A program made the position numbers and the translations under genes. Source: a virus. Taken from it: a stretch of 31,639 nucleotides of DNA. This document shows positions 3,689 through 31,639 of this stretch, piece by piece. The stretch lies in IMG/VR virus record IMGVR_UViG_3300042945_003213, positions 1 to 31,639 of that record; one strand, 5' to 3'. Each line of letters begins with the position of its first letter. Within the stretch, counting starts at the first letter, position 1. The notes under the pieces were generated by a model. It was given only the letters and a program-made list of their open reading frames with translations. It had not been told where the DNA came from and did no database searches.

Positions 3689-4570
3689 ATGAGATATTTG
3701 ATATTAGAAAGTAATTCTGGAATAGAAGAAAAGATAAAATTATTTATACCATTTGGTTTATTACAAGAAATTCTAATTTCGGGATTTCCTACAATGTTTA
3801 TTGAGGCGATTTCAAGTGGTAAAATTAAAGATGGTGCTCATATTTTAAATTCTAATGATGAAGTTAGAATTACAATCAATGTTTCAACATTAAGAACAAT
3901 CAAAGGACCGCAATCAATTCAAGCTATTTCCTTTATTGAAATATCAGAAAATGTAGTTGAGAAGAAAGAAGATATACAAAAACTGAATCAACTAACTAAA
4001 GACATAGAACAAATATATCCCCATATAAAAATTTCAGTTGTTCAAAATTGGGTAAGAGAATCAGAAAAAGAACAAATACCTCAACAGATGGGTGGTGTAT
4101 TTTTACCAAAAGATAAATGGTATTTGACAGATGAAAATGTTAAACTATTAAAAAGTATTGAGGGCAGACCAAGAAATAAACCATTTTGGGATGTTAAGCA
4201 TTGGGCAATTGGTTATGGTCATATGTTAAAGAGTCAATTTGAATTGGGTGAACAGATTACTGATGAAAAAATAGAAGAACTTTTTATTGCTGATAAAAAA
4301 AGATTTGAGAATGCTATTAAAGAAACTATAAATGTCCCATTGACATTAGATATGTATGCTGCACTTGTATCATTTGCATATAATTGCGGTGCTTATGGTT
4401 TTAAAGGTTCTAAAACAGCAGAGTTAGTAAATGCTAAAAAATATAACGAAGCTGCTGAAACTCTAAAAACTGAAAAAATTAAGTTAGGGACTAAATATGA
4501 AAAGGGTTTAAGAAGAAGAAGACAAAGGGAATCTGATTTATTTTTGGGTAAAAATGATAAAAATTCATAG
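3689..4570 (+). CDS. GH24 (T4-type) lysozyme with an extra N-terminal domain
   Basis: A 293-residue protein. Residues about 150-290 are a T4-lysozyme-like peptidoglycan muramidase domain: LLKSIEG with the predicted acid E158, a D at 168, WAIGYGHML (equivalent of T4 YTIGIGHLL), PLTLDMYAALVSFAYNCG, and LRRRRQRESDLF at the C-terminus. Residues 1-140 are not recognised: no signal peptide or membrane span, mixed beta/alpha, and a start MRYLILESNSG in which ILE/S resembles a prohead-protease site. The residue aligned with T4 Thr26, part of the Glu-Asp-Thr triad, is A173. With a late promoter element and a large extra domain, it may be a virion-associated tail lysozyme (gp5-like role) rather than the free endolysin, but no gp5-type repeats are seen. 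Confidence 0.82.
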   Translation: MRYLILESNSGIEEKIKLFIPFGLLQEILISGFPTMFIEAISSGKIKDGAHILNSNDEVRITINVSTLRTIKGPQSIQAISFIEISENVVEKKEDIQKLNQLTKDIEQIYPHIKISVVQNWVRESEKEQIPQQMGGVFLPKDKWYLTDENVKLLKSIEGRPRNKPFWDVKHWAIGYGHMLKSQFELGEQITDEKIEELFIADKKRFENAIKETINVPLTLDMYAALVSFAYNCGAYGFKGSKTAELVNAKKYNEAAETLKTEKIKLGTKYEKGLRRRRQRESDLFLGKNDKNS

Positions 4571-4734: not shown

Positions 4735-6744
4735 GTGAGTCATAATATGGATATGACACTCGATGGACAAAAAGTTGTCCTTATTGTTGAAAATAGTAAT
4801 CACAAACTCCAAGTTAAAGATAAGAATAATGATAGATATATCTTGGAGGGTGTTTTCTGCCAATTCGGTGTAGAAAACAATAACAGACGTATTTATGAAG
4901 AGCGTGAGTATTTACCACATTTGGATTATCTGAACGAGAAAATCAAATTAGGTAATCTCACAGGACAACTTGATCATCCTCAAGACTTTGAAGTTCGCTT
5001 ATCACAAGCATCACATCTTATTGAGAATCTTGAATATGATCAAAACAGCCGTCAAGTTGTTGGTAAAGTTCGTTTGCTTTCAACAAGATCAGGTAAAGAT
5101 GCAAGAGCACTTATTGATGATGGAGTTCAACTTTCAATTTCATCAAGAGCAGCTGGTGTTGTAGAATCAGACAAATCTGTTAAAATTAAAAGAATTTTCA
5201 CTTATGATTTGGTTGCTGACCCTGGTTTTGCTAATGCACAATTAACAAGATTAAATGAATCATTAGGTTTTACAAATAATGATTCTGTTAATATTTATGA
5301 TATGAGTTCAAAGTATGCGAGTGTAGAAGATGCAATTGAAGTTCTCGACCCGCAAATTAAAAATCAACCCTCTAAAATGGACCATTATGTGACGGAGGAA
5401 GTCTTAAATGACTACTCAAAAGAAATTCGCAAAGAGTTTGAGCGTTTTTCAAAGCGTCTTGATGAAATGAGGTCAGAAAACTCTTCTACGAGCGGTTCGA
5501 CAACTTTCATCAACGAATTTGAGCGCATGGCTAAATATGTAAATTATTTGGCTGAAAAACTCGATCAAGTTATTGAATATTCAAATTATCTTGCTGAAAA
5601 CACACAATCAATTCGTGATTATAGTAGTTATATCGCAGAGAATTTGAATAATTCAATTAACTATTCAGAGCATATCGCTGAACATGTTGAGAAAACACAG
5701 CACTATACTAATTATCTCGCTGAAAACCTTGATAAAGGTATTCAATATACAGAGCATGTTGGTGAAGAAGTTGAAAACCAAGCAAAGAAAATCAATGAAG
5801 CAATTAAATATTCTGAATATATTGCTGAGAATCTTGACAAAGGTATTCAATACTCAAATTATTTAGCAGAGAATGTAAATAAATCACAAGTATACGCAGA
5901 TTATCTTGCTGAGAATCTTGACAAGAATATTTGCTATTCTAATTACATTGCTGAAAAATTGGACACTGGATTACAATATGCAGATTACATTGCTGAAAAT
6001 GTAAATAATACACAAAAGTACACTAACTATTTGGCAGAAACTCTTGACCAAAGTATTCAACACAATGATTATTTGTCAGAGCATTTGGATAACACAATTC
6101 GTTATACCGAATATATTGCTGAAAATGTAAGTGGTAATGGTTCAAATACTTTAGTAAATGAATCATTAAATGAAAGTCAATCTATTTTGTCATCATATAA
6201 TGAAAATACACCTATAAGCCAAAAAATTGATTCTATTTTGGAATCTATCAGAAAACAAAAGATAGATACAGTTACCAAAAAGAACAATTATCAGTTTATG
6301 GGTATCTTGAGTGAATCAAAACAAAATGAATTCCTCGCACTTGATGAGACTGCAAAACAAAAAGTCGTAAAGGCGTTGAATGAAAGTGTTTGGTTCGGAG
6401 AAAGTGATATTGTTAGAATTTGGAACAATGCTCTTTCAAAGTATGACTCTTCTGCACCTAAGTGGATTAGAGAAATGCCTGTAGAATATTCTCAAATTTG
6501 GGAATCAATGAATACAGATGAAAAGAATCGTATTGTTGCTCAATCTAAGATGTATCGCTTGGATACATCATATCAAATAAAGAATTTCTGGTCAACGAGA
6601 GGTCTTGAAAATGCGAAAAAATCAGACAATCTCAATGAATCAAAATCAGTATTTAATATGAGTGTTGCACAAAACGATTTGGGATATGATACTAATTATG
6701 TTAATAATATCGCAGATCAACTAGCGAGTCGTTTTAATCGCTAA
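4735..6744 (+). CDS. Prohead protease fused to scaffold/core protein (T4 gp21 + gp22-like polyprotein)
   Basis: A 669-residue protein counting from GTG 4735; an in-frame ATG at 4747 is an equally good start. Residues about 1-172 form a T4 gp21-like serine protease: GQLDHP with catalytic His81, and LSISSRAAG (133-141) with the nucleophile Ser. A linker follows, then about 200 residues (268-470) of fourteen tandem repeats averaging 14 residues, of the form YSNYLAENLDKxIQ, a long regular helical scaffold. The C-terminal 190 residues are a separate, tryptophan-containing region. LNE/S-type motifs, matching the T4 prohead protease rule (L/I-x-E then a small residue), lie at E175, E476, E480, E527, E550 and E635, mostly at domain borders. 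T4 encodes protease and scaffold separately; here they are one chain. Followed 27 bases later by the capsid gene. Confidence 0.88.
   Translation: MSHNMDMTLDGQKVVLIVENSNHKLQVKDKNNDRYILEGVFCQFGVENNNRRIYEEREYLPHLDYLNEKIKLGNLTGQLDHPQDFEVRLSQASHLIENLEYDQNSRQVVGKVRLLSTRSGKDARALIDDGVQLSISSRAAGVVESDKSVKIKRIFTYDLVADPGFANAQLTRLNESLGFTNNDSVNIYDMSSKYASVEDAIEVLDPQIKNQPSKMDHYVTEEVLNDYSKEIRKEFERFSKRLDEMRSENSSTSGSTTFINEFERMAKYVNYLAEKLDQVIEYSNYLAENTQSIRDYSSYIAENLNNSINYSEHIAEHVEKTQHYTNYLAENLDKGIQYTEHVGEEVENQAKKINEAIKYSEYIAENLDKGIQYSNYLAENVNKSQVYADYLAENLDKNICYSNYIAEKLDTGLQYADYIAENVNNTQKYTNYLAETLDQSIQHNDYLSEHLDNTIRYTEYIAENVSGNGSNTLVNESLNESQSILSSYNENTPISQKIDSILESIRKQKIDTVTKKNNYQFMGILSESKQNEFLALDETAKQKVVKALNESVWFGESDIVRIWNNALSKYDSSAPKWIREMPVEYSQIWESMNTDEKNRIVAQSKMYRLDTSYQIKNFWSTRGLENAKKSDNLNESKSVFNMSVAQNDLGYDTNYVNNIADQLASRFNR
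5536..6144 (+). repeat. Fourteen coding repeats of about 42 bp in the scaffold region
   Basis: Each unit encodes roughly YSxYLAENLDKxIQ; the sixth is 21 residues long because of one extra heptad, and the thirteenth starts HNDYLSEHLD. Tyr at positions 1 and 4, Ala-Glu-Asn/His at 6-8 and Leu/Val at 9 are the most constant. DNA copies are diverged (mixed codons), so this is an old, selected repeat and not a recent slippage product. Confidence 0.9.
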
Positions 6745-6771: not shown

Positions 6772-8517
6772 ATGCAAATTTTAAATGAAGCAAAAATCCA
6801 CGAAACCTGGTCACCGATTATTGAATCACAGACAGGTATTAAAGATCGTGAAAAACTTAATTGGCTTTCCAAGTATTGCCATTATCACACATTGAACGAA
6901 TCATCAGCATACCAAACACTCGGTGGTACTCCTGGTATGGGTGGTGTTTCTACAGGTAACACACTTGGTTCAGGTGCATCTGGTTTCTATACAGGTACAA
7001 CTGGTTCAGGTGATAAGTTTCCATCACTTCTTCCTTTGGCAATCCAAGTTGCTGCTAAGACAGTAGGTTTTGACATTGTTAATGTTGTTCCTATGTCTGG
7101 TCCTGCTGGTGTTCTTACATATCTTGATTATGTATATGCTGGTGGTAAAATCAATAGTTCAGTTAAGCCTGAAATTATCACAATCAATGCTGGTCTTACA
7201 GGTAATCCTGATGCTGCATATGTAGTTGGTACTACATATTGGGGCTTAGACCTTCCAGGTGATGGTACAGATTTAGATGCGGGTCATGCAGTTAAATTGA
7301 CCTATGTAGGTAAGTCACGCATTACAGGTTATCCTATCTTCCGTGTTATTGGTACTTATGTAACAACAGGAACAGGTGCAGGTGTCACAGCAGATGATAC
7401 AGTAACTATTTCTGATGTATTCAGCCCAACAACAGCAGTTATTACAACTAATAATACTGGTGTAACACCTAATGTTCCTAATCTTGCATTAAACTTGCAA
7501 GCAGCATGTACAGGTAATGCAGAATTGGTAAATGCTCTTGAAAACCATGTTCATGGTTTTTCAGGTGCAGGTGCAACTGATGGAGATGATTGGCAAGGTG
7601 ATTTGATTACACCAACTAAAAACTATGAGCCAATGTCTCGTGGTACTGGTGAATCTACATACTATCGTGTTATGGGATTGAAGGCTTATACAAAGTTCGT
7701 AGAAGCAACAACTTACCAAGTTGCAGCATCTATCACAACTGAGCAAATTCAAGACTTGAATCGTCAGTATGGTATTGATGTTGTCGCTATGGTTGAAAAT
7801 GCACTTGTTAATGAGATTTCACAATCTATCAACAAGCACATCTTGAGCCGTGCATTTGCTCTTGGTTGGTCAAATAACTATGAGTTCTATCAAGTTATGG
7901 GCGAAACTCTTAACTTCCGTATTGATAGTACATCTGCTACAACATCTGCAGCATATTTGTTGAAAGATGGAACAACAACAACATTGGATATCAATGGTTT
8001 TGATCTTGCAGGTGCAGCTTCTACATTGTTTGAGAACTTATCAACAGTTCAACGTCGTGTAGTATCTAAGATTCTTGCAGCAGGTAATATCATTACTTCA
8101 AGAGGACGTCGTGGTCCAGCTAACTTTGTTGTAACAAATGCACAAGTTGCTACAGCACTTGCAGATGTTGCACAATTTACATTTGCTCCTATGGCAAATA
8201 CAATTAACCAAAACAATGGTTCTTTGTATCCTGTTGGAACACTTGCTGGTATGACTGTATATGTTGATCCTAACATGGAATGGACAGATACACGAGTTCT
8301 CGTTGGTCGCAAAGGTTCAGACGAAGAACCAGGTTTGAAATTCATGCCTTATTTGATGGCAGAACCAATTCAGACAATTTCTGAAGGTACAATGTCACCA
8401 AAGATTGCAGTTAAGAGCCGTTATGCTCTTGTTGAAGCAGGTCAGCTTCCACAAACAATGTACTATACATTTGTAGTATATCTTGGAGCAGCAGGTTCAA
8501 CAAAGTCTTTGGTTTAA
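6772..8517 (+). CDS. Major capsid protein, T4 gp23-like
   Basis: A 581-residue protein. After a polar N-terminus comes the family signature LLPLAIQVAAKTVGFDIVNVVPMSGP and LTYLDYVYAGGK (about residues 85-127), the segment that marks gp23-type HK97-fold capsid proteins. LNRQYGIDVVAMVENALVNE and the C-terminal KSRYALVEAG region complete the fold. Two possible prohead-protease sites are near the start, ILNE6/A7 and TLNE43/S44; cleavage at 43 would parallel removal of the T4 gp23 propeptide. Residues about 137-252 are an inserted domain that recurs in the tail sheath of this phage. The gene follows the protease-scaffold gene by 27 bases, without its own promoter, and is closed by a strong terminator. 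Confidence 0.93.
   Translation: MQILNEAKIHETWSPIIESQTGIKDREKLNWLSKYCHYHTLNESSAYQTLGGTPGMGGVSTGNTLGSGASGFYTGTTGSGDKFPSLLPLAIQVAAKTVGFDIVNVVPMSGPAGVLTYLDYVYAGGKINSSVKPEIITINAGLTGNPDAAYVVGTTYWGLDLPGDGTDLDAGHAVKLTYVGKSRITGYPIFRVIGTYVTTGTGAGVTADDTVTISDVFSPTTAVITTNNTGVTPNVPNLALNLQAACTGNAELVNALENHVHGFSGAGATDGDDWQGDLITPTKNYEPMSRGTGESTYYRVMGLKAYTKFVEATTYQVAASITTEQIQDLNRQYGIDVVAMVENALVNEISQSINKHILSRAFALGWSNNYEFYQVMGETLNFRIDSTSATTSAAYLLKDGTTTTLDINGFDLAGAASTLFENLSTVQRRVVSKILAAGNIITSRGRRGPANFVVTNAQVATALADVAQFTFAPMANTINQNNGSLYPVGTLAGMTVYVDPNMEWTDTRVLVGRKGSDEEPGLKFMPYLMAEPIQTISEGTMSPKIAVKSRYALVEAGQLPQTMYYTFVVYLGAAGSTKSLV
7180..7527 (+). repeat. Capsid copy of a domain shared with the tail sheath
   Basis: Encodes capsid residues 137-252: NAGLTGNPDAAYVVG, GDGTDLDAGHA, a YVG strand, VIGTYVTTGTGAGV, TISDVF, VITT, ALNLQ and TGN. 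The same order with about 60% identity by eye is found at 19141-19467 in the sheath gene. DNA is also visibly similar, e.g. ACAGGTAATCCTGATGC in both. Confidence 0.9.
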
Positions 8518-12397: not shown

Positions 12398-12667
12398 ATG
12401 TCGGAAAATGAATTTATGGGATATGATGATTTAGTTGAGTTCATATCTGAATTTATTATGGTATATGAAGCAGCGAGAATCACTCCTCATATTTATATCC
12501 AATGGTATAATAATCTTTCAGATGAACAGAAATGTTTTTTAATGGATGTTAGAGCTAAACAATTAGAAATAACCATGAAGATTGCATCTTTAGAAGAAGA
12601 AGCAAAAAAGTTTGAACAATCAATTCTTGATGAAGTTAATAAACTCATAAAAGGAAATGAAAAATAA
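12398..12667 (+). CDS. Small acidic protein of unknown function
   Basis: An 89-residue acidic, mostly helical protein (FMGYDDLVEFISEFIMVYEAAR at the start, EMTMKIASLEEEAKKFEQ-like helix at the end). No membrane span or known motif. It has a recognisable Shine-Dalgarno (AAAGGTG, 9 bases before ATG) and its own promoter candidate. It overlaps or nearly abuts the next gene, so the two are probably expressed together. Confidence 0.65.
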   Translation: MSENEFMGYDDLVEFISEFIMVYEAARITPHIYIQWYNNLSDEQKCFLMDVRAKQLEITMKIASLEEEAKKFEQSILDEVNKLIKGNEK

Positions 12668-12677
12668 AATCAAAATG

Positions 12678-13316
12678 ATGAAATATTTGAAACTCTTTGA
12701 AAACTTTGAGAATGAATCTGAAAAAAATATCAGAATGAATCAACCTGAAGAAACAAAAAGATGGATGGGTGGTATTTCTGAAATAAATGAAAAAGTCAAA
12801 GAGCTTCGTGAAGTTATGGATTTAATGAAAGAAGCAGAAAGACAAGTTGAAGAATTACAGAAAAGTCTTGGTGTGTCTGATTTAATTTCAGAGCAAAATA
12901 GATTGATGGAAGACATCAAAGTAGGAATGAGTTCTATAAGTAAATCAACACATAAAGCATATGGATTGATTTTAAAGCATAGAAAAGGAACTGTAAGATG
13001 GGATCCGCCAACTAAAACTCTTATGCTTGAGATAGTTGCTTTAGCGGTAGATGGTGCAAAGGATTTTATTGAAAGGATGAAAACTGAATCAGAATTTAAG
13101 AATCCTGTAAAAGTGAAGCCATCACTTAAAGTTGAATATGATGATGAAAATGTGACAGAAGCAGAAATGATGGAGAAGAATCCTTGGTATAAAAGGATGT
13201 GGGATAAACTTACGAATTGGCTAACTTCTTTCAGAAGAAAAGTTATAGATGTATCTAATGAATTAGATTCAAAGGTAAAAGAACTTGAAATGAGATTAGA
13301 AGAACAAAGTATGTAA
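12678..13316 (+). CDS. Coiled-coil protein of unknown function with MKYLKLFE start
   Basis: A 212-residue protein from ATG 12678; in-frame ATGs at 12675 and 12657 (the latter overlapping the previous stop) are alternatives. I chose 12678 because MKYLKLFENF is a start seen in several proteins of large T4-like phages, as I recall it. Residues about 25-90 are charged coiled coil (EINEKVKELREVMDLMKEAERQVEELQ). A compact middle follows (HRKGTVRWDPPTKTLMLEIVALAVDGAKDFIERMK), and the C-terminus has WYKRMWDKLTNWLTSFRRK, an amphipathic tryptophan-rich helix that could touch membrane or protein surfaces. No known family. Closed by a terminator shared with the convergent peptidase gene. Confidence 0.65.
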   Translation: MKYLKLFENFENESEKNIRMNQPEETKRWMGGISEINEKVKELREVMDLMKEAERQVEELQKSLGVSDLISEQNRLMEDIKVGMSSISKSTHKAYGLILKHRKGTVRWDPPTKTLMLEIVALAVDGAKDFIERMKTESEFKNPVKVKPSLKVEYDDENVTEAEMMEKNPWYKRMWDKLTNWLTSFRRKVIDVSNELDSKVKELEMRLEEQSM

Positions 13317-15156: not shown

Positions 15157-15651
15157 ATGATAAATAGATTAAGTGAGATTGAAATTCAACTATTAAAAAG
15201 AGTTATCGTTCCAGAAATATTTGTTATTACAAAAAAAGGTTTAGCTCAAGTAATTAGTATTGATAAAAATAGAGTTTTAACTAATAGTAAAGAATATGGT
15301 GAGACTTATTATAGTTATGATGAAATCATTCCTATAATGAAAGGATTTGAACATCTTACTTTTCTTGATTTGTTTAACATTGTAGATATTTTAACTGATA
15401 GAATAGGATATGGAAACTATAAACCCAATCATAATTTTATTCCACACTATTACGAAATAACAGAAGAAAGTATAGATTTGAAAGTTCAAATATATCACAA
15501 TTTTGATATAATTCATTGTGATAACCTAATAACTAATTTAGGTTCAGTATATCATTATTTATTATCTAAAAATTTTGATGTATATAATCTGCATAAAAAA
15601 GGAATAGTAATAATAGACCCAGAGTATTATGGAACAAATAAATTACAATAA
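15157..15651 (+). CDS. Protein of unknown function
   Basis: A 164-residue protein starting at ATG 15157, one base after the dnaJ stop; GTGAGGACTAAAATG gives a GAGG ribosome site with correct spacing, so I prefer it to the in-frame GTG at 15145. Features: VPEIFVITKKGLAQVISI (small beta domain), a GFEHLTFLDLF segment, and a C-terminus SKNFDVYNLHKKGIVIIDPEYY. No membrane segment or catalytic motif recognised. The gene overlaps the following glycosyltransferase by 23 bases, indicating coupled translation of dnaJ, this gene and the transferase. Confidence 0.65.
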   Translation: MINRLSEIEIQLLKRVIVPEIFVITKKGLAQVISIDKNRVLTNSKEYGETYYSYDEIIPIMKGFEHLTFLDLFNIVDILTDRIGYGNYKPNHNFIPHYYEITEESIDLKVQIYHNFDIIHCDNLITNLGSVYHYLLSKNFDVYNLHKKGIVIIDPEYYGTNKLQ

Positions 15652-16432
15652 AATAGGAATAGGAATTGTTACATATAATTCCCCATCAAGATTGAAAATA
15701 TGTTTAGAGACTATTCCAAGTTATATCGAAAATGTTGTAATTGTAAATGATGGTACACCATACGACTTTACAATATATGGCAATCAACATGATGTAATTC
15801 AACATACAAAAAATAAAGGAGTAGCTGGAGCAAAAAATTCTGCTTTACGATATTTGGTTGGTAAAGGTTGTGAACATTTATTTTTATTAGAAGATGATAT
15901 TATTATAAAAGATGATAAAATATTTGAAAAATATATTGAAGCATCTTTGAAATCAGGTATAAAACATTTTAATTATGCTTTACAAGGATATGGAAATTCA
16001 AAAAGAAAGAGTGATGGTACAATAGATCATCCAACACCTGTATATTGTGTTCATTATGATGAAACGCATATTTGTTTCTATCATTGGTGTTCAGGTCCTT
16101 TTATGTATATCCATAAAGATTGTATAGATGCAGTAGGATATATGGATGAAAATTTTTACAATATACATGAGCATGTTGATTATACGAATAGAATTATAAA
16201 CGCTGAATTACATCCGCCATTTTGGTATTTTGCCGATATAGCAAATGCACATCATTATATTAATGATAGTCCTGAATTTAGAAATACAACAATTGAAAAA
16301 AATGATTACTATAATCAAAGATTAATAGGTGCTGATATTTATTTTGAACAAAAGCACGGACATAAACCTCTTAATATTCCACATAAATCAATAGAAGACT
16401 TACTTCTATTTTTACTAAAAATTAAACCTTAA
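15629..16432 (+). CDS. Family 2-like glycosyltransferase
   Basis: A 267-residue GT-A protein. It opens with IGIGIVTYNSPSRLKICLETIP and VVIVNDGTP, the nucleotide-binding strand and loop of GT2 enzymes. KGVAGAKNSALRY follows, then LFLLEDDIIIKDD, where E88-D89-D90 occupies the DXD position. FHWC/YHWCSGPFMYIHKDC and the C-terminal FEQKHGHKP fit acceptor and nucleotide contacts. The EDD form, rather than DXD, is common in GT2 relatives that act on proteins or lipids. No membrane span. The start overlaps the preceding gene by 23 bases. Its product could glycosylate virion proteins or cell-surface glycans; not determined. Confidence 0.78.
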   Translation: MEQINYNKIGIGIVTYNSPSRLKICLETIPSYIENVVIVNDGTPYDFTIYGNQHDVIQHTKNKGVAGAKNSALRYLVGKGCEHLFLLEDDIIIKDDKIFEKYIEASLKSGIKHFNYALQGYGNSKRKSDGTIDHPTPVYCVHYDETHICFYHWCSGPFMYIHKDCIDAVGYMDENFYNIHEHVDYTNRIINAELHPPFWYFADIANAHHYINDSPEFRNTTIEKNDYYNQRLIGADIYFEQKHGHKPLNIPHKSIEDLLLFLLKIKP

Positions 16433-17030: not shown

Positions 17031-17051
17031 ATGCTTCTTAAATATGGCTAA
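17031..17051 (+). other. Possible six-codon leader ORF overlapping the sheath start
   Basis: ATG 17031 follows the purine-rich GAGGAAAAAAA and encodes MLLKYG before a TAA at 17049-17051, which overlaps the sheath ATG (17044) in another frame. The only Shine-Dalgarno-like sequence here serves this ATG and not the sheath ATG, so it could couple or tune sheath translation. Weak but specific. Confidence 0.3.
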
Positions 17052-20000
17052 AATTAAACTGGACCTGACTCAGTTCAAAGCATCTGGAGTATACACATTA
17101 GAATTTGACGCATCTGAAAGTATTATTCTTAATACACAGACAGTTCGTTTAGTTGTAGGTTTCTCAAGAAAAGGACCTTTCAATTCACCTGTATATTTGC
17201 CTGATGTTAAAACTGCAAGACGAATATTTGGAGAAATCGATCCTTTCTTGGAATCAAGAGGTAGTTTTTTCCATAGATCGTTATTTACTTGTTTAGATAT
17301 AGGACCTGTTTTTGGTCTTAATCTATTGCCGTTAAATAACCAACCTATTTCTCAAGGTGGAGATGCCACAGAGTACCGATCATTCTCAGTAGATACTGCT
17401 GAAACCAATGGTAGTGTAACAAAGGCTCTTTATTCTAATTTCTATAATACTCAAAGATTTTGGTATCCTGATGAAACAAATTTGGTTGCTATTGCAAATG
17501 CAAATGCTTCAAACACTGGAAAATTACTTCATATTGTAAATTTGAGCCAAGGACCACTTTCTGTTATCATCCGTAAAACAGTTGTTAATGGATTTGATAT
17601 TACAGCAAGAGATTGGTATGGTCAATCTGGTGAAGAAAAACCAGCATATATTGAAGACTTTGATTATATCGCAGATTACTTTGTAGAAGTTATTATTGTT
17701 CAAGGAAATTGGACAAACTATAAGAAACTTTCTACTGATCCAATATTCTCAAAATATTTCAACGAAAGAGGTATTCTTAAATCACAATTAAATGCATTTC
17801 TTTCATCAGAAGAAATCAATACTGTTGCAAGATTTAATGGATGCTTGATACCTGATTTTGTTGATGGTAATGGTGTAAATCATTCACTTGATACTATTGT
17901 TAATAATAGTGTTGCTACAACAGGTGTATTTTTAGCTTTTAATAAAGAAGCATTAGCTGATTATGAAACATCTACATCAAAATATGATGTAATTGGTCAT
18001 CATTTGGCTGATCCAGCATATAATGTAGATTATTTGGATATGTTGTCATATAAGACTAATGTTAAAGAAGAATTTACCTATACTGAAAACACAGGAAGTT
18101 TTACATCAACAACTTATGATGCAGAAACATCTGGAGATTATTATACAGAATCATATAAAGGTAGAGGTTCTCAAGGTGCATTCAAGAATGTTTTGGTTCT
18201 AAAAAGACCTGCATCAACATCTGTAGTAAAATATGCAGAATACCAATTTATCGTAAGTAATTTGATAGTAGGTGGTTCTGTAATTCAAATGGATAGTGGT
18301 GATTGGGCAAGAGTTGAATCAAAACAAGAAACATTAGATTCAAGTGGGAATACGATTTTGAAAATTACATTCTCACATCCTGATAAAGCTGATGAATTAA
18401 CAATGACACCCGTTAATGTTTTAGCGGCTACATTCCAAACATCACAGACAGTAACATTAACAAGTGGTTCAGATACATTTACAGTATCATCTGCTACTAA
18501 CATTCGTGAAAATCAGCCTATCACAGGAACAGGTATTCCTTCGGGTACATACATAACTGATATTACTGGAACAACTATTACAATGTCTGCAAATGCGACT
18601 GCAAGTGGTAGTGTTTTAGTAACATTTGGTGGTTCTATTGTTTTGAGTGGTGATCAAACAGGTGATATTGCAGATGGTGATGAAGTTCTTATTAAAAATT
18701 CTCAAGACACAACTACATTTTATGTAGATGTTAATGATTCACCAATTCTTAATGGTTCTTCAAATACAATCGTACCATTAGTGAATGTATTAAACTTGCA
18801 GGATATGACATATAACCCAAGTTATTACACATCAACATTTGGTGCTTTACAATTCCCTGATTTATCAGGCGACCAAATTACTATAGCTTACACTCCTGAT
18901 TTGTTTTATTTTGATACAACAGGAGCAGTTAATAAGTTTATTGCTTATCCATATTCACAAATCTATAAAGATTATGACTCTGGTTTCTTAACAAATGGTG
19001 ATAAATACTATTATGGTTCTACTGATTTTTATTATTTGAAATATGGTAAATCAGCAGATGCAGATGGTATTCCAGTTCTTGAAATTAGAGCATATGAAGA
19101 TAGTGCATTGAATACTGTTATTTCAGAATCAACAACATATATTGAAGTTAATGCAGCATTAACAGGTAATCCTGATGCAGCTTATGTTGTAGGTGGAACT
19201 TATTGGGCATTAAATGCACCTGGTGACGGAACAGATTTGGATGCAGGTTATGCTGCCGAACTTGAATATGTTGGAGCATCAACAAACACATCAAATGAAA
19301 TTTTCAAAGTTATTGGTTATTACACAACAACTGGAACAGGTGGTGCTGTAGTTGCTGATGCAACTGTTGAAATTACTGATGTATTTGATGGTTCAAGCGT
19401 AATTACAACTGATGATTCAGGAGAACCATTCACAGCATTGAACTTACAAGGTGCTGTAACTGGAACATATACACAAATCGGTTCATTTATTGATATTTTG
19501 AATTATGTTAAAGATGGTGCAATTAATTCATCAGGAACTATAAACATTTATCCATTTGCAGATTCTTTCTCTGAAACATTTGTTGTACAAGCATGGAATG
19601 CTACAAAAACAGAGGTTGATGTAAATGTAGCAGATGCAACTGGATTAGATGTAGGTCAATATCTTGTATCATATACAACTGATGATGAAGGTGCTGATGT
19701 TTATAGACTTACAAAGATTATTAGAAAGAGAAAGATTTTTGATGAAACAACTTCTCTTTTCAAATTCCGTTATACTGTAAATCAACCAATTCAAATTCTT
19801 AATGAATATGGTACAGGCGATAAAACTATCACAAGATATAAGTCAATAGACGATTTTGTTACTACTTATGAATTCTCAGGTATGAGTGGTTTCAAATTAA
19901 CATCATTCCACTTGCCAGGTGATAGAACTAATAAGCAATCTCAAATGGAGAAGATTTATGAAGTTCTTGAAACTACTAATCTTTTTGAAGCATTAACAAG

Positions 20001-20946
20001 TCGTGATGTTATCCAATTCCGTTATATTGTTGATACATTTGATGGTGGATTACAACCAAATAATTATCCAAAGAGCATTCTTTCTAAATTAGCTAAAGAA
20101 CGCTTGAAGTGTTTGGCTCTGCTTAATCCTCCTTCTGCAAAACAATTTGAAGCATCTACAGATCCTAGATTTACAGATGAACCAGATCCAGCAGGAGGTA
20201 ATCCAAGACCATTGTTGAATACATCTTATATTGCAACAGGTGGAAATCAATCTCTTGGACCAAGTTTCTCATATTCATTACCAGATGAAGAAAATGGAGC
20301 AAAACATGCAGCATTTTTCTTCCCTTACATAATTTTGAGAGATGGAACAAAGAATATAATAGTACCACCAGCAGCTCATGTTTCAAACAATTTTGTTTTG
20401 AAATTCATTAATGGTTTCCCTTACTCAATTGTTGCAGGACCTAGAAGAGGTATATTGTCAGATAGTCGTTTGGTTGGTCCTGAAATTGATTTGTCAGATA
20501 ACGATAGAGAATCACTTGAACCATTTGGTTTGAATCCTATTGTTAAGAGAGCGAGACTTGGTACAATGATTTATGGAAATCAAACTGCATACCAAAAAGT
20601 ACCATCTGCAATGAACAATGTTCATGTTCGTGATTTGCTGATCACTATTGAAGAAGGTGTTGAAGATATTTTAGCAAGATACATCTTTGAATTTAATGAT
20701 GCAACAACACGATTGGAAATTAAGTCTATTGTAGATACATTCTTAGATGGTGTTAGATCAGCAGGTGGAATATACAATTTCTTCACACAAATGGATGATA
20801 CAAACAATCCTCCTGAAATCATTGACCAAAACAAAGCTATTATTGATATTGCAGTAGAACCAGCAAGAGGTATTCAAGTTGCAATTTCAAGAATTACAGT
20901 TACGAAGACAGGTGGAGCAAACGCATCAGCGTTTCAGTTTGTTTAA
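17044..20946 (+). CDS. Tail sheath protein, T4 gp18-like, greatly enlarged
   Basis: A 1300-residue protein, about twice the length of T4 gp18. The N-terminus (LTQFKASGVYTLEFDASESI, VRLVVGFSRKGPFNSPVY) and the C-terminus (LNPIVKRARLGTMIYGNQTAY, VRDLLITIEEGVEDILARYIFEFND, RTVT-like last strand) are those of contractile-tail sheath subunits; the C-terminal part makes the inter-ring mesh. The extra length lies in the middle, where outward-facing domains are tolerated. It includes residues about 463-536, a Thr/Ser-rich beta domain (TLTSGSDTFTVSSATNI, GTYITDITGTTITMS), and 700-808, a copy of the domain found in the capsid protein. It has its own late promoter element and is followed by a long hairpin. 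Confidence 0.9.
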   Translation: MAKIKLDLTQFKASGVYTLEFDASESIILNTQTVRLVVGFSRKGPFNSPVYLPDVKTARRIFGEIDPFLESRGSFFHRSLFTCLDIGPVFGLNLLPLNNQPISQGGDATEYRSFSVDTAETNGSVTKALYSNFYNTQRFWYPDETNLVAIANANASNTGKLLHIVNLSQGPLSVIIRKTVVNGFDITARDWYGQSGEEKPAYIEDFDYIADYFVEVIIVQGNWTNYKKLSTDPIFSKYFNERGILKSQLNAFLSSEEINTVARFNGCLIPDFVDGNGVNHSLDTIVNNSVATTGVFLAFNKEALADYETSTSKYDVIGHHLADPAYNVDYLDMLSYKTNVKEEFTYTENTGSFTSTTYDAETSGDYYTESYKGRGSQGAFKNVLVLKRPASTSVVKYAEYQFIVSNLIVGGSVIQMDSGDWARVESKQETLDSSGNTILKITFSHPDKADELTMTPVNVLAATFQTSQTVTLTSGSDTFTVSSATNIRENQPITGTGIPSGTYITDITGTTITMSANATASGSVLVTFGGSIVLSGDQTGDIADGDEVLIKNSQDTTTFYVDVNDSPILNGSSNTIVPLVNVLNLQDMTYNPSYYTSTFGALQFPDLSGDQITIAYTPDLFYFDTTGAVNKFIAYPYSQIYKDYDSGFLTNGDKYYYGSTDFYYLKYGKSADADGIPVLEIRAYEDSALNTVISESTTYIEVNAALTGNPDAAYVVGGTYWALNAPGDGTDLDAGYAAELEYVGASTNTSNEIFKVIGYYTTTGTGGAVVADATVEITDVFDGSSVITTDDSGEPFTALNLQGAVTGTYTQIGSFIDILNYVKDGAINSSGTINIYPFADSFSETFVVQAWNATKTEVDVNVADATGLDVGQYLVSYTTDDEGADVYRLTKIIRKRKIFDETTSLFKFRYTVNQPIQILNEYGTGDKTITRYKSIDDFVTTYEFSGMSGFKLTSFHLPGDRTNKQSQMEKIYEVLETTNLFEALTSRDVIQFRYIVDTFDGGLQPNNYPKSILSKLAKERLKCLALLNPPSAKQFEASTDPRFTDEPDPAGGNPRPLLNTSYIATGGNQSLGPSFSYSLPDEENGAKHAAFFFPYIILRDGTKNIIVPPAAHVSNNFVLKFINGFPYSIVAGPRRGILSDSRLVGPEIDLSDNDRESLEPFGLNPIVKRARLGTMIYGNQTAYQKVPSAMNNVHVRDLLITIEEGVEDILARYIFEFNDATTRLEIKSIVDTFLDGVRSAGGIYNFFTQMDDTNNPPEIIDQNKAIIDIAVEPARGIQVAISRITVTKTGGANASAFQFV
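18430..18651 (+). other. Thr/Ser-rich beta domain inserted in the sheath
   Basis: Encodes sheath residues 463-536, with pattern VTLTSGSDTFTVSSATNI, QPITGTGIPSGTYI, ITGTTITMSANATASG and VTF. The same wording is familiar from repeat modules of phage tail and bacterial surface proteins (from memory, no search made). Only one copy is in this window, so it looks like an acquired module. Confidence 0.55.
19141..19467 (+). repeat. Sheath copy of a domain shared with the major capsid protein
   Basis: Encodes sheath residues 700-808: NAALTGNPDAAYVVG, TYWALN, GDGTDLDAGYA, EYVGAS, KVIGYYTTTGTGGAV, EITDVF, VITT, TALNLQ and TGT. It aligns along its whole length with capsid residues 137-252, with short gaps only near the end. 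Confidence 0.9.
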
Positions 20947-22213: not shown

Positions 22214-24037
22214 ATGGCAAAATCTGAAAGAGATATAGTAGCATTTGAGGATCATGAACATGTCCTTAAAAGACCTGCCCTATATGTAGGTTCAATAACG
22301 AAATCTGATGAAAAAATACCTATTTATAAAGATGGATATTTTATAACTGAACTTCGCTCTATTTCAGTAGCATATTGGAAAATTATAGATGAAGTTATTG
22401 ATAACGCTTTAGATGAAGCAAAAAGATGTGCTCGTGAGAAGAAACCTATGGATTCTATATTTATTAGGTTTGATTCAAATACAGGCGTAATAGAGGTAGA
22501 AGATACAGGTAGAGGATTTAAGGATGGAGAAAGGAAAAATAGTAAGACTGGCTTAACAAATATTGAAACTGCATTAACAAAATTAAGAAGTGGTAGTAAT
22601 TTTTACAATGAAGAAAATGGTTCAACCGTAGTTGGTATGAATGGAATGGGTGTATCATTATGCACTATTCTTTCAGATTGGCTTGAAATAGAAACTAACA
22701 ATGGTTCTATAATATACAAGCAAAAATGGGTGAACTTTACTAAAATTGAATATAAAGAGATTAAGAAAACCACAAAGAAAACAAAAACAGGAACAATTAT
22801 AAGATTTAAGCCAAGACAAAATATCTTTGTTGATTGCTTACCTGAATATGATATTGTGCTTACTAAAATGATTTTGAGAAATTTGTTGATAAAGAACTCA
22901 AAGGATATTAGTAATCTGAATTTTCATGTATATTTTGATGGAAAGAAAATTGATTTAGATGTCCAAACAATACCTCCTGATTCTTTGCATATAAAGGGAG
23001 ACTTGGGAAATATATGGATATTTAAGTCATTTGAAGATTCTTGTTCATTAGGTTTTATCAATGGTGCTCTTTGTACAGGTTCACATATTAATATCATCAG
23101 AGATAACATTAATGAAATATTTGATAGTTCAACTGCACATCATTTTTATGAAATGATTGCTATTTTTGATTTACCAGCCCAGCATGTTCGTTTTGGAGAT
23201 CAAAATAAGACTAAATTCGTAACTCCTCGTTCAGAAATGGAGGAAGTTTTTTCCAAACAGATAATTACTCGTGTAAGAAAAGAAATATCAAGGTGGAAAT
23301 ATTTCAAAGAAATAAAAAAACTTATACAAGAGAAAAGCGATGCTGAAAGTTTAAGAAAAGTTCGTTCGGCTAAAAGACAATCAAAAGTTCAAATAAGTGA
23401 TAAATACACACCTCCTGCAAAAAAGCAAGTAAACCTTTTTATATGTGAAGGTCATTCAGCAGCAGGTGGTTTGTGTCAAGGCAGAAATCCTCAAACAGAT
23501 GGAGTATATGCCCTTAAAGGAAAAGTAAAAAATGTAAGAACTGTAAAAGATTTAGCAACTAATAAAGAAGTTTTAGATTTAATTCATATAATGGGATTAG
23601 AACCAGGTAAAGAAGATAATTTAAAGTGGGAAAAAATAATAATTGCAGCTGATGCAGATCCTGATGGACATCATATTTCATCTTTGATAATTAACTTTAT
23701 TTGGAAATGGTTTCCTAATGTTATCAGAAATGGAAAATTAATGATTCTAAAATCCCCACTTGTTCGTATTGGTCAAGGTACAAAAAGAAAGTATTTTTAT
23801 TCTAAAGATGAATTCAATAAGTCTGTAAAAAATAAAAAATCTGAAGATGTAAGATATTTGAAAGGTTTAGGTTCTATGAATTCTCAAGATTGGGAATGGG
23901 TTTATAGAAATATGAATCTCATAAAGATTGTTGCTGATAAAAAAGCAAACAAATCATTGCAAATGGCTATGGGTGAAAATGCAGAAGAAAGAAAATTATG
24001 GTTATCAACATCTATAAACAAAGATTCAAATGGCTAA
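22214..24037 (+). CDS. DNA topoisomerase II large (ATPase/TOPRIM) subunit, T4 gp39/gp60-like
   Basis: A 607-residue GyrB/ParE-type subunit. The GHKL ATPase has IIDEVIDNALDEA (E60, N64), VEDTGRGF (D97) and GMNGMGVSLC (141-150). The TOPRIM domain has FICEGHSAAGG with E412, and IIAADADPDGHH with D480, D482 and D484. With the gp52-like protein encoded two genes downstream it would form a T4-type topoisomerase that relaxes DNA during replication. Unlike T4, where the TOPRIM part is a separate gene 60 with a 50-nucleotide bypass, the chain here is uninterrupted. The usual EGDSA is EGHSA. The end overlaps the next gene by 8 bases. Confidence 0.92.
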   Translation: MAKSERDIVAFEDHEHVLKRPALYVGSITKSDEKIPIYKDGYFITELRSISVAYWKIIDEVIDNALDEAKRCAREKKPMDSIFIRFDSNTGVIEVEDTGRGFKDGERKNSKTGLTNIETALTKLRSGSNFYNEENGSTVVGMNGMGVSLCTILSDWLEIETNNGSIIYKQKWVNFTKIEYKEIKKTTKKTKTGTIIRFKPRQNIFVDCLPEYDIVLTKMILRNLLIKNSKDISNLNFHVYFDGKKIDLDVQTIPPDSLHIKGDLGNIWIFKSFEDSCSLGFINGALCTGSHINIIRDNINEIFDSSTAHHFYEMIAIFDLPAQHVRFGDQNKTKFVTPRSEMEEVFSKQIITRVRKEISRWKYFKEIKKLIQEKSDAESLRKVRSAKRQSKVQISDKYTPPAKKQVNLFICEGHSAAGGLCQGRNPQTDGVYALKGKVKNVRTVKDLATNKEVLDLIHIMGLEPGKEDNLKWEKIIIAADADPDGHHISSLIINFIWKWFPNVIRNGKLMILKSPLVRIGQGTKRKYFYSKDEFNKSVKNKKSEDVRYLKGLGSMNSQDWEWVYRNMNLIKIVADKKANKSLQMAMGENAEERKLWLSTSINKDSNG

Positions 24038-25094
24038 ACTACTAAGTATAATATATCCTACTAATAATAGAAATATAGGATTTATTCTTGATTCTTTAAG
24101 TACCATACTTTATCAAAGTTATCAAAGTTGGGAACTTATAGTAGTTAAAGATTCGTCATTTGATTTTGAAGATAAATGTGGTTTTCTTATTAATGATTAT
24201 AGATATAAAATTAAATTTATAGATGCACCTGATAATTGTGGTGTTGGAAAGGCAAGAGATATTGGATTAAAAAACGCAAGGGGTTCTTATATCGCATATT
24301 TGGATGACGATGATTTATGGAGTCAAGATTATCTTCAGAATCAAATTGATATTTTAGAAAAAAGCAATGCAGATGTTGTTTATTGTAATTATCATTTAAG
24401 GACTCAAATTTATAATGATATAGAAAAAAAGTATGTGCAACATTTTATATCTATACCATATAATGTAAATCCATTCGATAGAAATGTTTTATTAACCGAA
24501 TCATTTATACATCCTTCTTCAGTAGTTCATACTAAGAATGTTACAGAATTAATTGAATTCCCTAATCTTCGTTCTTTTAGTGAATGGGATTTTTTCCTTA
24601 AAATATCCAAATTATTCAGATTTCAAGCCAATTCTAATGTTTTAGCCACTATACAAAGAAGGTTAGATAATACAAATAGTAGAACAGAATTAAATAACGA
24701 ATCTATACATATTCAAAAAAGAATTATTCAAGAATATGATTCTGACATAAAGGATGAAGATATTAGAAAAATTAGAGATATGGTATTTAATGCATATGTT
24801 CAAGAATATGAAATTAAAGGAAACAGAGAAGCAAAAAAACTTGAAACTCTACTTCAAAACAGAGGTGTTGAATTTGCTTTTGCATATTTAAAGATGCTAT
24901 TAGATAGAAATGAAATTAATGCAAGTATTTGTAAAGTAGCATATGATATATCACTATTAAAAAATAATAAAGATTTGGCTGAAGATTTTCAATTTCTTAC
25001 ATTGTGGTATAGTGGACAGATTACTGAAAACTATTCTACATATATTCCCAAGTATTTTGAGAGAAACAACGAACAATGGAACGCATTACTATAA
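24030..25094 (+). CDS. Family 2 glycosyltransferase inside the topoisomerase operon
   Basis: A 354-residue protein with a classical GT2 N-terminal domain: LLSIIYPTNNRNIGFILDSLSTIL, SWELIVVKDSS, NCGVGKARDIGLKNARGSYIAYLDDDDLW (D92-D95 giving the DXD), and ADVVYCNY. The HPSSVVHTKN and SEWDFFLKIS segments correspond to the acceptor site. The C-terminal 130 residues are helical and unassigned. No membrane segment. It overlaps the topoisomerase large-subunit gene by 8 bases and the medium-subunit gene by 19, so all three are translationally coupled. The location suggests either gene insertion into the operon or a function linked to DNA, but nothing in the sequence shows DNA as the acceptor. Confidence 0.82.
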   Translation: MAKLLSIIYPTNNRNIGFILDSLSTILYQSYQSWELIVVKDSSFDFEDKCGFLINDYRYKIKFIDAPDNCGVGKARDIGLKNARGSYIAYLDDDDLWSQDYLQNQIDILEKSNADVVYCNYHLRTQIYNDIEKKYVQHFISIPYNVNPFDRNVLLTESFIHPSSVVHTKNVTELIEFPNLRSFSEWDFFLKISKLFRFQANSNVLATIQRRLDNTNSRTELNNESIHIQKRIIQEYDSDIKDEDIRKIRDMVFNAYVQEYEIKGNREAKKLETLLQNRGVEFAFAYLKMLLDRNEINASICKVAYDISLLKNNKDLAEDFQFLTLWYSGQITENYSTYIPKYFERNNEQWNALL

Positions 25095-29670: not shown

Positions 29671-31639
29671 ATGCCTATAATTTATAATATAATTCTTGAC
29701 GATACTAATGGTATATTAGGTTTTCAAGGAATTCAAGGTCTTCAAGGTATAGGAGACCAAGGTGTACAAGGACTTCAAGGTGTTCAAGGTCCTCAAGGAC
29801 AAGGAACGCAAGGTAATCAAGGGATACAAGGATTAAGAGGTATTCAAGGTATTCAAGGTCCAGTTGGGAATGAAGGAAAACAAGGAAATATAGGTATTCA
29901 GGGGATTCAAGGGAATCAAGGTCCTACTGGAATCGGTGTTCAAGGTTCTATTGGTCCACAGCAGTCTGGATTAGGAGATCAAGGACCGCAAGGGAGACAA
30001 GGTGCTATTGGTCCACAACAATCTGGATTAGGTGAAAGAGGTTATCAAGGCATTCAAGGACCTCTTGGATTTCAGGGTAATCAAGGTGCTATTGGTCCGC
30101 AACAATCTGGATTAGGAGACCAAGGACCACAGGGTAATCAAGGTGCTATTGGTCCACAGCAGTCTGGATTAGGAGAACAAGGTTCATTTGGTCCTCAAGG
30201 ATTTCAAGGTGTTCAGGGTAGAGGTACACAAGGTATTCAAGGTGTACAAGGATTGAGAGGTATTCAAGGTATTCAAGGTCCAACTGGTTCACAAGGTTTT
30301 CAAGGTATTGGTACTCAAGGTTTAAAGGGAGATCAAGGACCTATTGGTATTAGTATTCAGGGAGAACAAGGTGAAAAGGGAGACCAAGGTTATCAAGGTA
30401 TTACTGGATTTCAAGGAACTCAAGGTGTTCAAGGTAAAGATGGATTTCTTGGTGGTCAAGGATTTCAGGGTATAGATGGAACTCAAGGAAACCAAGGTAA
30501 TCAAGGAGCACAAGGAGAACAAGGTGTTCAAGGTGACCAAGGAACTCAGGGTAATCAAGGAACACAAGGTAATCAAGGTAATCAAGGAACTCAAGGCACA
30601 CAGGGTAATCAAGGCAATCAGGGAACTCAAGGCGACCAAGGCACACAGGGTAATCAAGGCAATCAGGGAACTCAAGGCGACCAGGGTGTGCAGGGAACTC
30701 AGGGAACTCAAGGCGACCAAGGCACACAGGGTAATCAAGGCAATCAGGGAACTCAAGGCGACCAGGGTGTGCAGGGAACTCAGGGAACTCAAGGCGACCA
30801 AGGCACACAGGGTAATCAAGGCAATCAGGGAACTCAAGGCGACCAGGGTGTGCAGGGAACTCAGGGTAATCAAGGAACACAAGGTAATCAGGGTAATCAG
30901 GGTAATCAAGGCAATCAGGGAACTCAAGGCGACCAGGGTGTGCAGGGAACTCAGGGAACTCAAGGCGACCAAGGTAATCAGGGTAATCAGGGTAATCAGG
31001 GAACTCAAGGCGAACAGGGTGTGCAGGGAACTCAGGGTAATCAAGGAACACAAGGCGATCAAGGTGTTCAAGGCACACAAGGTACACAGGGAACACAAGG
31101 TGTTCAAGGTACACAAGGCACACAGGGTAATCAAGGAACTCAAGGCAATCAGGGAACTCAAGGCGACCAAGGTGTTCAAGGCACACAAGGCACACAGGGA
31201 ACACAAGGTGTTCAAGGCAATCAGGGAACTCAAGGTGACCAAGGTGTGCAAGGAACGCAGGGCGACCAAGGTGTTCAAGGTACACAGGGTAATCAGGGCA
31301 ATCAAGGCACACAGGGCAATCAAGGCACACAGGGTAATCAAGGCACACAAGGTAATCAAGGTGCGCAGGGAACTCAGGGTAATCAAGGCACACAAGGTAA
31401 TCAGGGAACTCAAGGTAGTCAGGGAACTCAAGGTGACCAAGGTGTGCAAGGAACACAAGGCACACAGGGAACTCAGGGTAATCAAGGCACACAAGGCACA
31501 CAGGGTAATCAAGGCAATCAGGGAACTCAAGGCGACCAAGGTGTGCAAGGCACACAAGGTGTTCAAGGCACACAAGGCACACAGGGTAATCAAGGCAATC
31601 AGGGAACTCAAGGCGACCAAGGTGTGCAAGGCACACAGG
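29671..31639 (+). CDS. Collagen-like Gly-X-Gln repeat protein, probable tail fibre, 3' end outside window
   Basis: An open frame of 656 codons without a stop before the right edge. After a short N-terminus (MPIIYNIILDDTNGILGF, residues 1-18) the whole chain is Gly-X-Y triplets in which Y is almost always Gln: FQGIQGLQG early, then TQGNQGDQGVQG. Proline is rare, unlike typical collagens. Four interruptions of the form IGPQQSGLG break the triplet phase at about residues 91-168. Such repeats form triple helices or packed polyglycine-type rods in phage fibres and whiskers. Start: ATG 29671, no Shine-Dalgarno, preceded by CCCTATAAA. Codon use shifts from about 30594 (Gly GGC becomes common, G+C rises), indicating recent repeat expansion. 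A C-terminal receptor domain may lie beyond the window. Confidence 0.85.
   Translation, partial: MPIIYNIILDDTNGILGFQGIQGLQGIGDQGVQGLQGVQGPQGQGTQGNQGIQGLRGIQGIQGPVGNEGKQGNIGIQGIQGNQGPTGIGVQGSIGPQQSGLGDQGPQGRQGAIGPQQSGLGERGYQGIQGPLGFQGNQGAIGPQQSGLGDQGPQGNQGAIGPQQSGLGEQGSFGPQGFQGVQGRGTQGIQGVQGLRGIQGIQGPTGSQGFQGIGTQGLKGDQGPIGISIQGEQGEKGDQGYQGITGFQGTQGVQGKDGFLGGQGFQGIDGTQGNQGNQGAQGEQGVQGDQGTQGNQGTQGNQGNQGTQGTQGNQGNQGTQGDQGTQGNQGNQGTQGDQGVQGTQGTQGDQGTQGNQGNQGTQGDQGVQGTQGTQGDQGTQGNQGNQGTQGDQGVQGTQGNQGTQGNQGNQGNQGNQGTQGDQGVQGTQGTQGDQGNQGNQGNQGTQGEQGVQGTQGNQGTQGDQGVQGTQGTQGTQGVQGTQGTQGNQGTQGNQGTQGDQGVQGTQGTQGTQGVQGNQGTQGDQGVQGTQGDQGVQGTQGNQGNQGTQGNQGTQGNQGTQGNQGAQGTQGNQGTQGNQGTQGSQGTQGDQGVQGTQGTQGTQGNQGTQGTQGNQGNQGTQGDQGVQGTQGVQGTQGTQGNQGNQGTQGDQGVQGTQ
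29944..30174 (+). repeat. Four copies of a 33-bp PQQSGLG-encoding element
   Basis: Copies at 29944, 30001, 30085 and 30142 encode GSIGPQQSGLG once and GAIGPQQSGLG three times, with spacings 57, 84 and 57 bases. Each interrupts the Gly-X-Y register. DNA copies differ at only a few positions (CAGCAG/CAACAA, TCT/GCT). Confidence 0.85.
30631..30873 (+). repeat. 81-bp tandem repeat, three copies, in the collagen-like gene
   Basis: Copies start at 30631, 30712 and 30793. The first two are identical by eye and the third differs only in its last few bases. Each encodes 27 residues, GDQGTQGNQGNQG followed by TQGDQGVQGTQGTQ. The flanking sequence to the right edge is made of shuffled 9-base units of the same kind. 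Confidence 0.88.

Follow-up and report, generated by a model that had tools for sequence, protein, structure and literature searches.

The window analysed here, a stretch of 31,639 nucleotides from a virus, contains on its plus strand a frame (4735-6744) that is open over 669 codons and is followed directly 3' by a gp23-type major capsid gene (6772-8517, plus strand; Pfam Gp23). The opposite strand of 4735-6744 carries many stops, and no long frame was found on it. Translation probably begins at ATG 4747 (residue 5) and not at GTG 4735, because the close relatives begin MDMTLDG; the start-context scores of the two codons are 3.37 and 0.69, respectively. From ATG 4747 the gene (4747-6744, plus strand) encodes 665 amino acids. 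Residues are numbered with GTG 4735 as residue 1, as in an earlier, sequence-only reading of this DNA, which had placed a prohead protease and a scaffold together in the frame 4735-6744. The frame is indeed a single ORF, and H81, SISSRAAG and the motifs ending at E175, E476, E480, E527, E550 and E635 all lie at the residues that had been named. The domain order is gp21-type protease, variable linker, 14-residue repeats, disordered linker, helical FWxTR domain, disordered linker and terminal helix, and the fusion is kept in 53 non-redundant relatives. The predicted model of the full-length protein is of modest confidence (pLDDT 63).

Residues 136-248 of the major capsid protein and residues 700-807 of the tail sheath protein (gene at 17044-20946) have in common a 113-residue insert (62% identity, E 6e-29), parts of which recur in the major capsid proteins of relatives; the insert may be a surface or decoration domain that the two proteins share. 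A lysozyme (3689-4570; MRYLILE-SNS) and the product of an ORF at 12657-13316 (MMKYLKLFE-NFE) begin with a short N-terminal stretch ending in an h-x-E-like motif (h being L, I or V), resembling T4 capsid-targeting propeptides, and could be packaged head proteins. Glycosyltransferase-like genes (223-2862, 15629-16432 and 24030-25094) are found among the structural genes, and a long low-complexity protein with collagen-like QGxQG repeats (29671-31638) runs off the end of the window.

Domains of the fused gene and its distribution

The N-terminal part matches Pfam PF03420 (Peptidase_S77) with 45.4 bits against a curated cut-off of 27, and PHROG 207 with E 3e-37. The T4 gp21 structure (5jbl) is matched by sequence as well as by predicted fold (Foldseek E 1.4e-9; TM-score 0.74 by target length). 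The gp21-type serine protease domain spans residues 20-175 (4792-5259, plus strand), and its triad H81, S136 and D158, which lines up with T4 H85, S140 and D168, is invariant in 50 relatives. Family, fold and triad agree with the proposal of a gp21-like protease domain, which is joined in one frame to a coiled-coil C-terminal part. The domain is preceded by a propeptide (4747-4791, plus strand) ending in IVE19|N, with h-x-E in 50/50 relatives. This is the counterpart of LIE9, the self-cleavage site of T4 gp21 (PMC9026906, PMC9958956), whose N-terminus blocks the active site until it is cut (PMC9958956). Viral fold matches of the whole model were mainly other prohead proteases, and a search of the PDB gave no fold match beyond the protease.

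About 14 units of a 14-residue repeat (5536-6123, plus strand) follow the variable linker and are predicted to form a long helix or coiled coil. The repeats had been noticed before, and they are real and in frame; nearly every unit carries an L/I-x-E motif, about one per 14 residues (14 against 3.8 expected). Pfam matches of the repeats (PSCyt2, FERM and others) were below cut-off, typical of coiled coil, and were discarded. In the predicted model a helical C-terminal domain with an FWxTR signature (6214-6594, plus strand), homologous to the tails of the pT24 and PTm1 proteins, holds ILE503, LSE527 and LNE550, and a C-terminal helix (6691-6735, plus strand) ends the protein. A fold search with the tail domain returned two matches below E 0.001, one of which is an annotated fused prohead protease, and weaker matches to pT24 and PTm1. 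Homology of the C-terminal part to gp22 was not found by hhalign (probability about 1% or less, with gp22 profiles of only 3-4 sequences, with which a weak relationship may escape), nor did it match a gp22 PHROG. An ASRF C-terminus common to T4 gp22 and the window protein is a look-alike and was given no weight. The C-terminal part occupies the place of gene 22 in relatives, between protease and major capsid gene, with no other gene there. From this gene position, the coiled coil and the sites, we infer that the C-terminal part is a scaffold.

By tblastn, full-length relatives turned up in the genomes (462-735 kb) of five different uncultured phages, one genome having been deposited twice, and a profile scan of IMG/VR identified more than 560 relatives of the protease. 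Among the best 80 IMG/VR loci, every complete gene is fused (544-677 aa), with the exception of L060, whose repeats contain an in-frame TAA (L060:5030-5032) where the near-identical L063 has CAA, either an error or a real interruption. The 53 relatives are those that remain distinct below 85% identity, deposited genomes included. A Lak phage (584 aa) carries the fusion, as do the isolates pT24 (527 aa), PTm1 (564 aa), GXN1 (558 aa), MA9V-2 and MaF61. The last two, MA9V-2 (L114) and MaF61 (L018), are flavobacterial phages whose fused proteases are much larger (1207 and 1404 aa, respectively) and contain many NE-S/N-type motifs; further core proteins may have been joined in. In T4, P-SSM7, phiM7, NCTC12673, Cassandra, 121Q and GAP32 the two are separate genes lying next to each other, and they are separate in C48C1 as well, in agreement with the contrast drawn earlier between the window fusion and the separate T4 genes for protease gp21 and scaffold gp22.

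A tree of the proteases splits fused from separate forms, with two exceptions that long branches make unsure: the separate protease of PAU is placed among the fused forms, and GXN1, on a very long branch, is placed outside them. Sphingomonas phage PAU (L105, 2827-4403) encodes a separate 246-aa protease, after which the next gene begins almost at once, possibly through a gene split. The matches in genome bins were to three Bacteroidales or Muribaculaceae MAGs and one further bacterium. Together with several fused isolates that infect flavobacteria, these matches point to a probable host within Bacteroidota.

Predicted cleavage sites

L/I-x-E is the motif after which the T4 protease cleaves (PMC9026906), and predicted sites of this type are far above chance in the fused gene. 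With expected counts obtained by shuffling, the motif hNE[SA] (h = L/I/V) occurs six times in the window fusion against 0.21 expected and [LI]xE 30 times against 8.8; across the 53 relatives, 125 occurrences of hNE[SA] compare with 9.8 expected. Two further copies lie in the major capsid protein (0.05 expected), and only two of 25 other window proteins tested have one each. The pro-region of the capsid protein contains LNE6|A, IIE18|S and LNE43|S, and sites at about residues 7, 19 and 43 recur in most relatives, making this protein an independent candidate substrate with the same motif.

Conservation of the sites was scored column by column in 50 relatives. At the junction site RLNE175|S (5248-5262, plus strand), h-x-E is present in 50/50 relatives and is aligned with T4 ITE187|S as well as with h-x-E sites of 121Q, GAP32, PAU, pT24 and Lak, an alignment by which the junction looks like the old gp21 C-terminal self-cleavage site with the scaffold now attached. 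Self-cleavage at the C-terminus is documented for the phiKZ and SPN3US proteases (PMC5694885). NLNE635|S in the last disordered linker (6628-6642, plus strand) keeps h-x-E in 44/50 relatives. E175 as a processing site between the protease and the rest, and E635 as a site near the C-terminus, are thus well supported candidates, as the sequence-only reading had it. The disordered linker with VNE476|S and LNE480|S (6127-6213, plus strand) contains at least one hxE[SAGNQ] in 33/50 relatives. Elsewhere, h-x-E is found at E503 in 42, at E538 in 37, at E527 in 28 and at E550 in only 8 of the 50.

The model is of low confidence around E175, E476/E480 and E635, where the chain is probably disordered; E527 and E550 are inside the predicted folded helical domain. 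Where flanking sequence stays conserved, E175 and E635 are retained and E550 is mostly lost; the proposal of E550 as a site is thereby not supported. For E527 the motif is present, but its conservation in little more than half of the relatives and its position in the folded domain leave the proposal doubtful. E19 and the near-universal L/I-x-E of the repeats were absent from the earlier list of sites.

A conserved internal methionine

A methionine is located 5-21 residues before a conserved scaffold motif in 53/53 relatives; in the window it is M215, encoded by ATG 5377-5379 (plus strand). The linker around it is hypervariable, and S, E, D or A often follows the Met. A start profile of the 22 upstream bases was built from 202 ORF starts in the same loci, and it tells starts and 2197 internal Met codons apart with an AUC of 0.955. 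The conserved Met has a mean score of 2.9 on this profile, compared with 5.4 for starts, -5.3 for other Mets of the same proteins and -7.0 for Mets of other ORFs, and it is distinguished from the other Mets of the same proteins with an AUC of 0.92. It also scores above neighbouring linker positions, a comparison that controls for linker composition (p 9e-12; the relatives share ancestry, which makes p-values optimistic, but the clades point the same way). In 36 of 52 proteins it is the top-scoring internal Met, where 7 are expected. The score of M215 in the window is exceeded by 2% of background Mets, and the window's M522 scores above it.

The 10 codons before M215 (5347-5376, plus strand), a putative initiation region, show the highest synonymous conservation in the gene. 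They rank 1/655 in the window's clade and 17/609, 10/614, 19/557, 99/606, 12/538, 15/631 and 8/618 in the others of eight clades, which places the constraint in the top 3.4% in seven of the eight and leaves it weak in one (99/606). RNA near the conserved Met has less structure than GC-matched places in the same genes. These DNA-level signals fit an initiation site, and constraint on the protein alone predicts none of them. The Lak phage has a start-like Met, M212, at the matching place. No start-like internal Met was found in the fused isolates pT24, PTm1, GXN1 and MA9V-2, and the fusion can therefore work without one. Nevertheless, the signals at the Met lead us to infer that ATG 5377 is used as a start, which would give a scaffold-only product of 455 aa in the same frame (5377-6744, plus strand) beside the protease-scaffold protein.

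A proposed nested protease-scaffold gene and its alternatives

We favour, with a probability of about 0.7, the interpretation that both the prohead protease and the internal core or scaffold of a jumbo phage come from this one gene, as two in-frame products, a protease-scaffold and the scaffold alone. Translation from ATG 4747 would yield a pro-protease joined to scaffold, bringing the protease into the assembling core, and internal initiation at ATG 5377 would supply abundant scaffold alone, outnumbering the protease. After assembly of the shell, the protease would free itself at E19 and E175, and the freed protease would cut the scaffold and trim the major capsid protein; the predicted sites are, on this sequence evidence, presumably cut. 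In T4, 55-100 copies of gp21 stand against about 576 of gp22 (PMC5694885, PMC9958956). A plain polyprotein would give equimolar protease and scaffold, unlike the T4 ratio, and an internal start would therefore solve the stoichiometry.

The window gene shares with T4 gp21/gp22 the protease family, fold and triad, the order protease-scaffold-major capsid protein, the L/I-x-E motif and matching N- and C-terminal self-cleavage sites of gp21. It differs from the T4 arrangement of two genes in being one gene, with a scaffold not detectably homologous to gp22. The jumbo phages Asteriusvirus 121Q and Mimasvirus GAP32 have the same gp21-scaffold-gp23 order, and the window protein aligns across both of their genes, but these phages have one gene for the protease (about 210 aa) and another for the scaffold (about 370 aa). 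In phage lambda, C and Nu3 are a protease and a scaffold nested in one frame, with the scaffold made from an internal start; the protease of C is of a family other than gp21, and the nested frame is the point of likeness to the window, where the internal start is proposed only. In the herpesvirus UL26/UL26.5 system, the protease is joined to the scaffold and released by self-cleavage, and the scaffold is also made alone, from UL26.5, which, unlike the arrangement proposed for the window, has its own transcript. A relationship between the herpesvirus protease fold and the gp21 type has been suggested (PMC5694885); in our fold search the herpes proteases came next after gp21, with E 0.03-0.2, far below gp21. 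Phage P2 gpO also combines scaffold and protease in one protein (PMC6893505), but it is of a different family, and an internal start is no part of the P2 model. The Tenacibaculum phages pT24 and PTm1 have the same fusion and a homologous C-terminal domain, though without a start-like internal Met. Their label 'prohead core scaffolding protein and protease' is also given to ordinary gp21 and is therefore no sign that the fusion was noticed; in the open-access literature searched, no paper naming the fusion or the internal start was found.

A single fusion without internal start, in which all scaffold is made equimolar as protease-scaffold, like P2 gpO, and the Met is a structural element at the start of the coiled coil, is unlikely. 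The fused pT24, PTm1, GXN1 and MA9V-2, which have no start-like Met, and the joining of scaffold and protease in one P2 protein (PMC6893505) argue in its favour, but it is at odds with a start-like context that stands out even from neighbouring linker positions, with the synonymous constraint upstream of the Met and the low RNA structure, and with flanking residues that vary freely. Somewhat less probable again is a role of the C-terminal part as a minor protein of the core or interior that targets the protease to the core, with another gene encoding the main scaffold. Here the exact gene 22 place, without another gene between protease and major capsid protein, and the long coiled coil with its many protease sites weigh against the one point in support, that gp22 homology was not found with the small gp22 profiles.

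The layout put forward in the sequence-only reading, autoprocessing at six sites to free the protease, an intact repeat scaffold and small core peptides, is in this form very improbable. Its sites are present and above chance in number, conservation holds for E175 and E635, and the fusion in one frame and the junction site stand; the intact scaffold, cleavage at E550 and the equimolar output are not supported. L/I-x-E occurs in nearly every repeat, and the T4 rule predicts cutting there (PMC9026906). Because of these motifs, of which T4 gp22 likewise has many, the repeat scaffold would be expected to be shredded, more likely than released whole; T4 gp22 itself is broken down to small peptides (PMC9958956). 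E550, moreover, keeps h-x-E in just 8/50 relatives and sits in the predicted folded domain. An assembly or sequencing artefact joining two genes, to which the in-frame stop in the repeats of L060 might point, can be dismissed: about 80 complete relatives in independent contigs and several isolate genomes are fused, and most of the fused relatives group together in the protease tree.

The fusion, in contrast, is real and conserved; its protease is of a known family, and its logic is that of lambda, of herpesviruses and partly of P2. The mechanism with two in-frame products is also sharper than the six-site layout. Only a little less secure than this mechanism, and still probable, is its extension to a large clade, related to T4, of jumbo and huge phages including Lak and the 735 kb genome, which would have a nested gene, an old conserved internal start and a scaffold family not detectably related to gp22. 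For this large clade the analysis offers a concrete candidate, with cleavage sites and start codon named, and corrects the annotation of genes that are usually labelled only prohead protease; the scaffold has two useful markers, the FWxTR domain and the 14-residue repeats. If true, a T4-type head module would follow the nested logic of lambda and herpesviruses, and the scaffold of the largest phages known would be identified.
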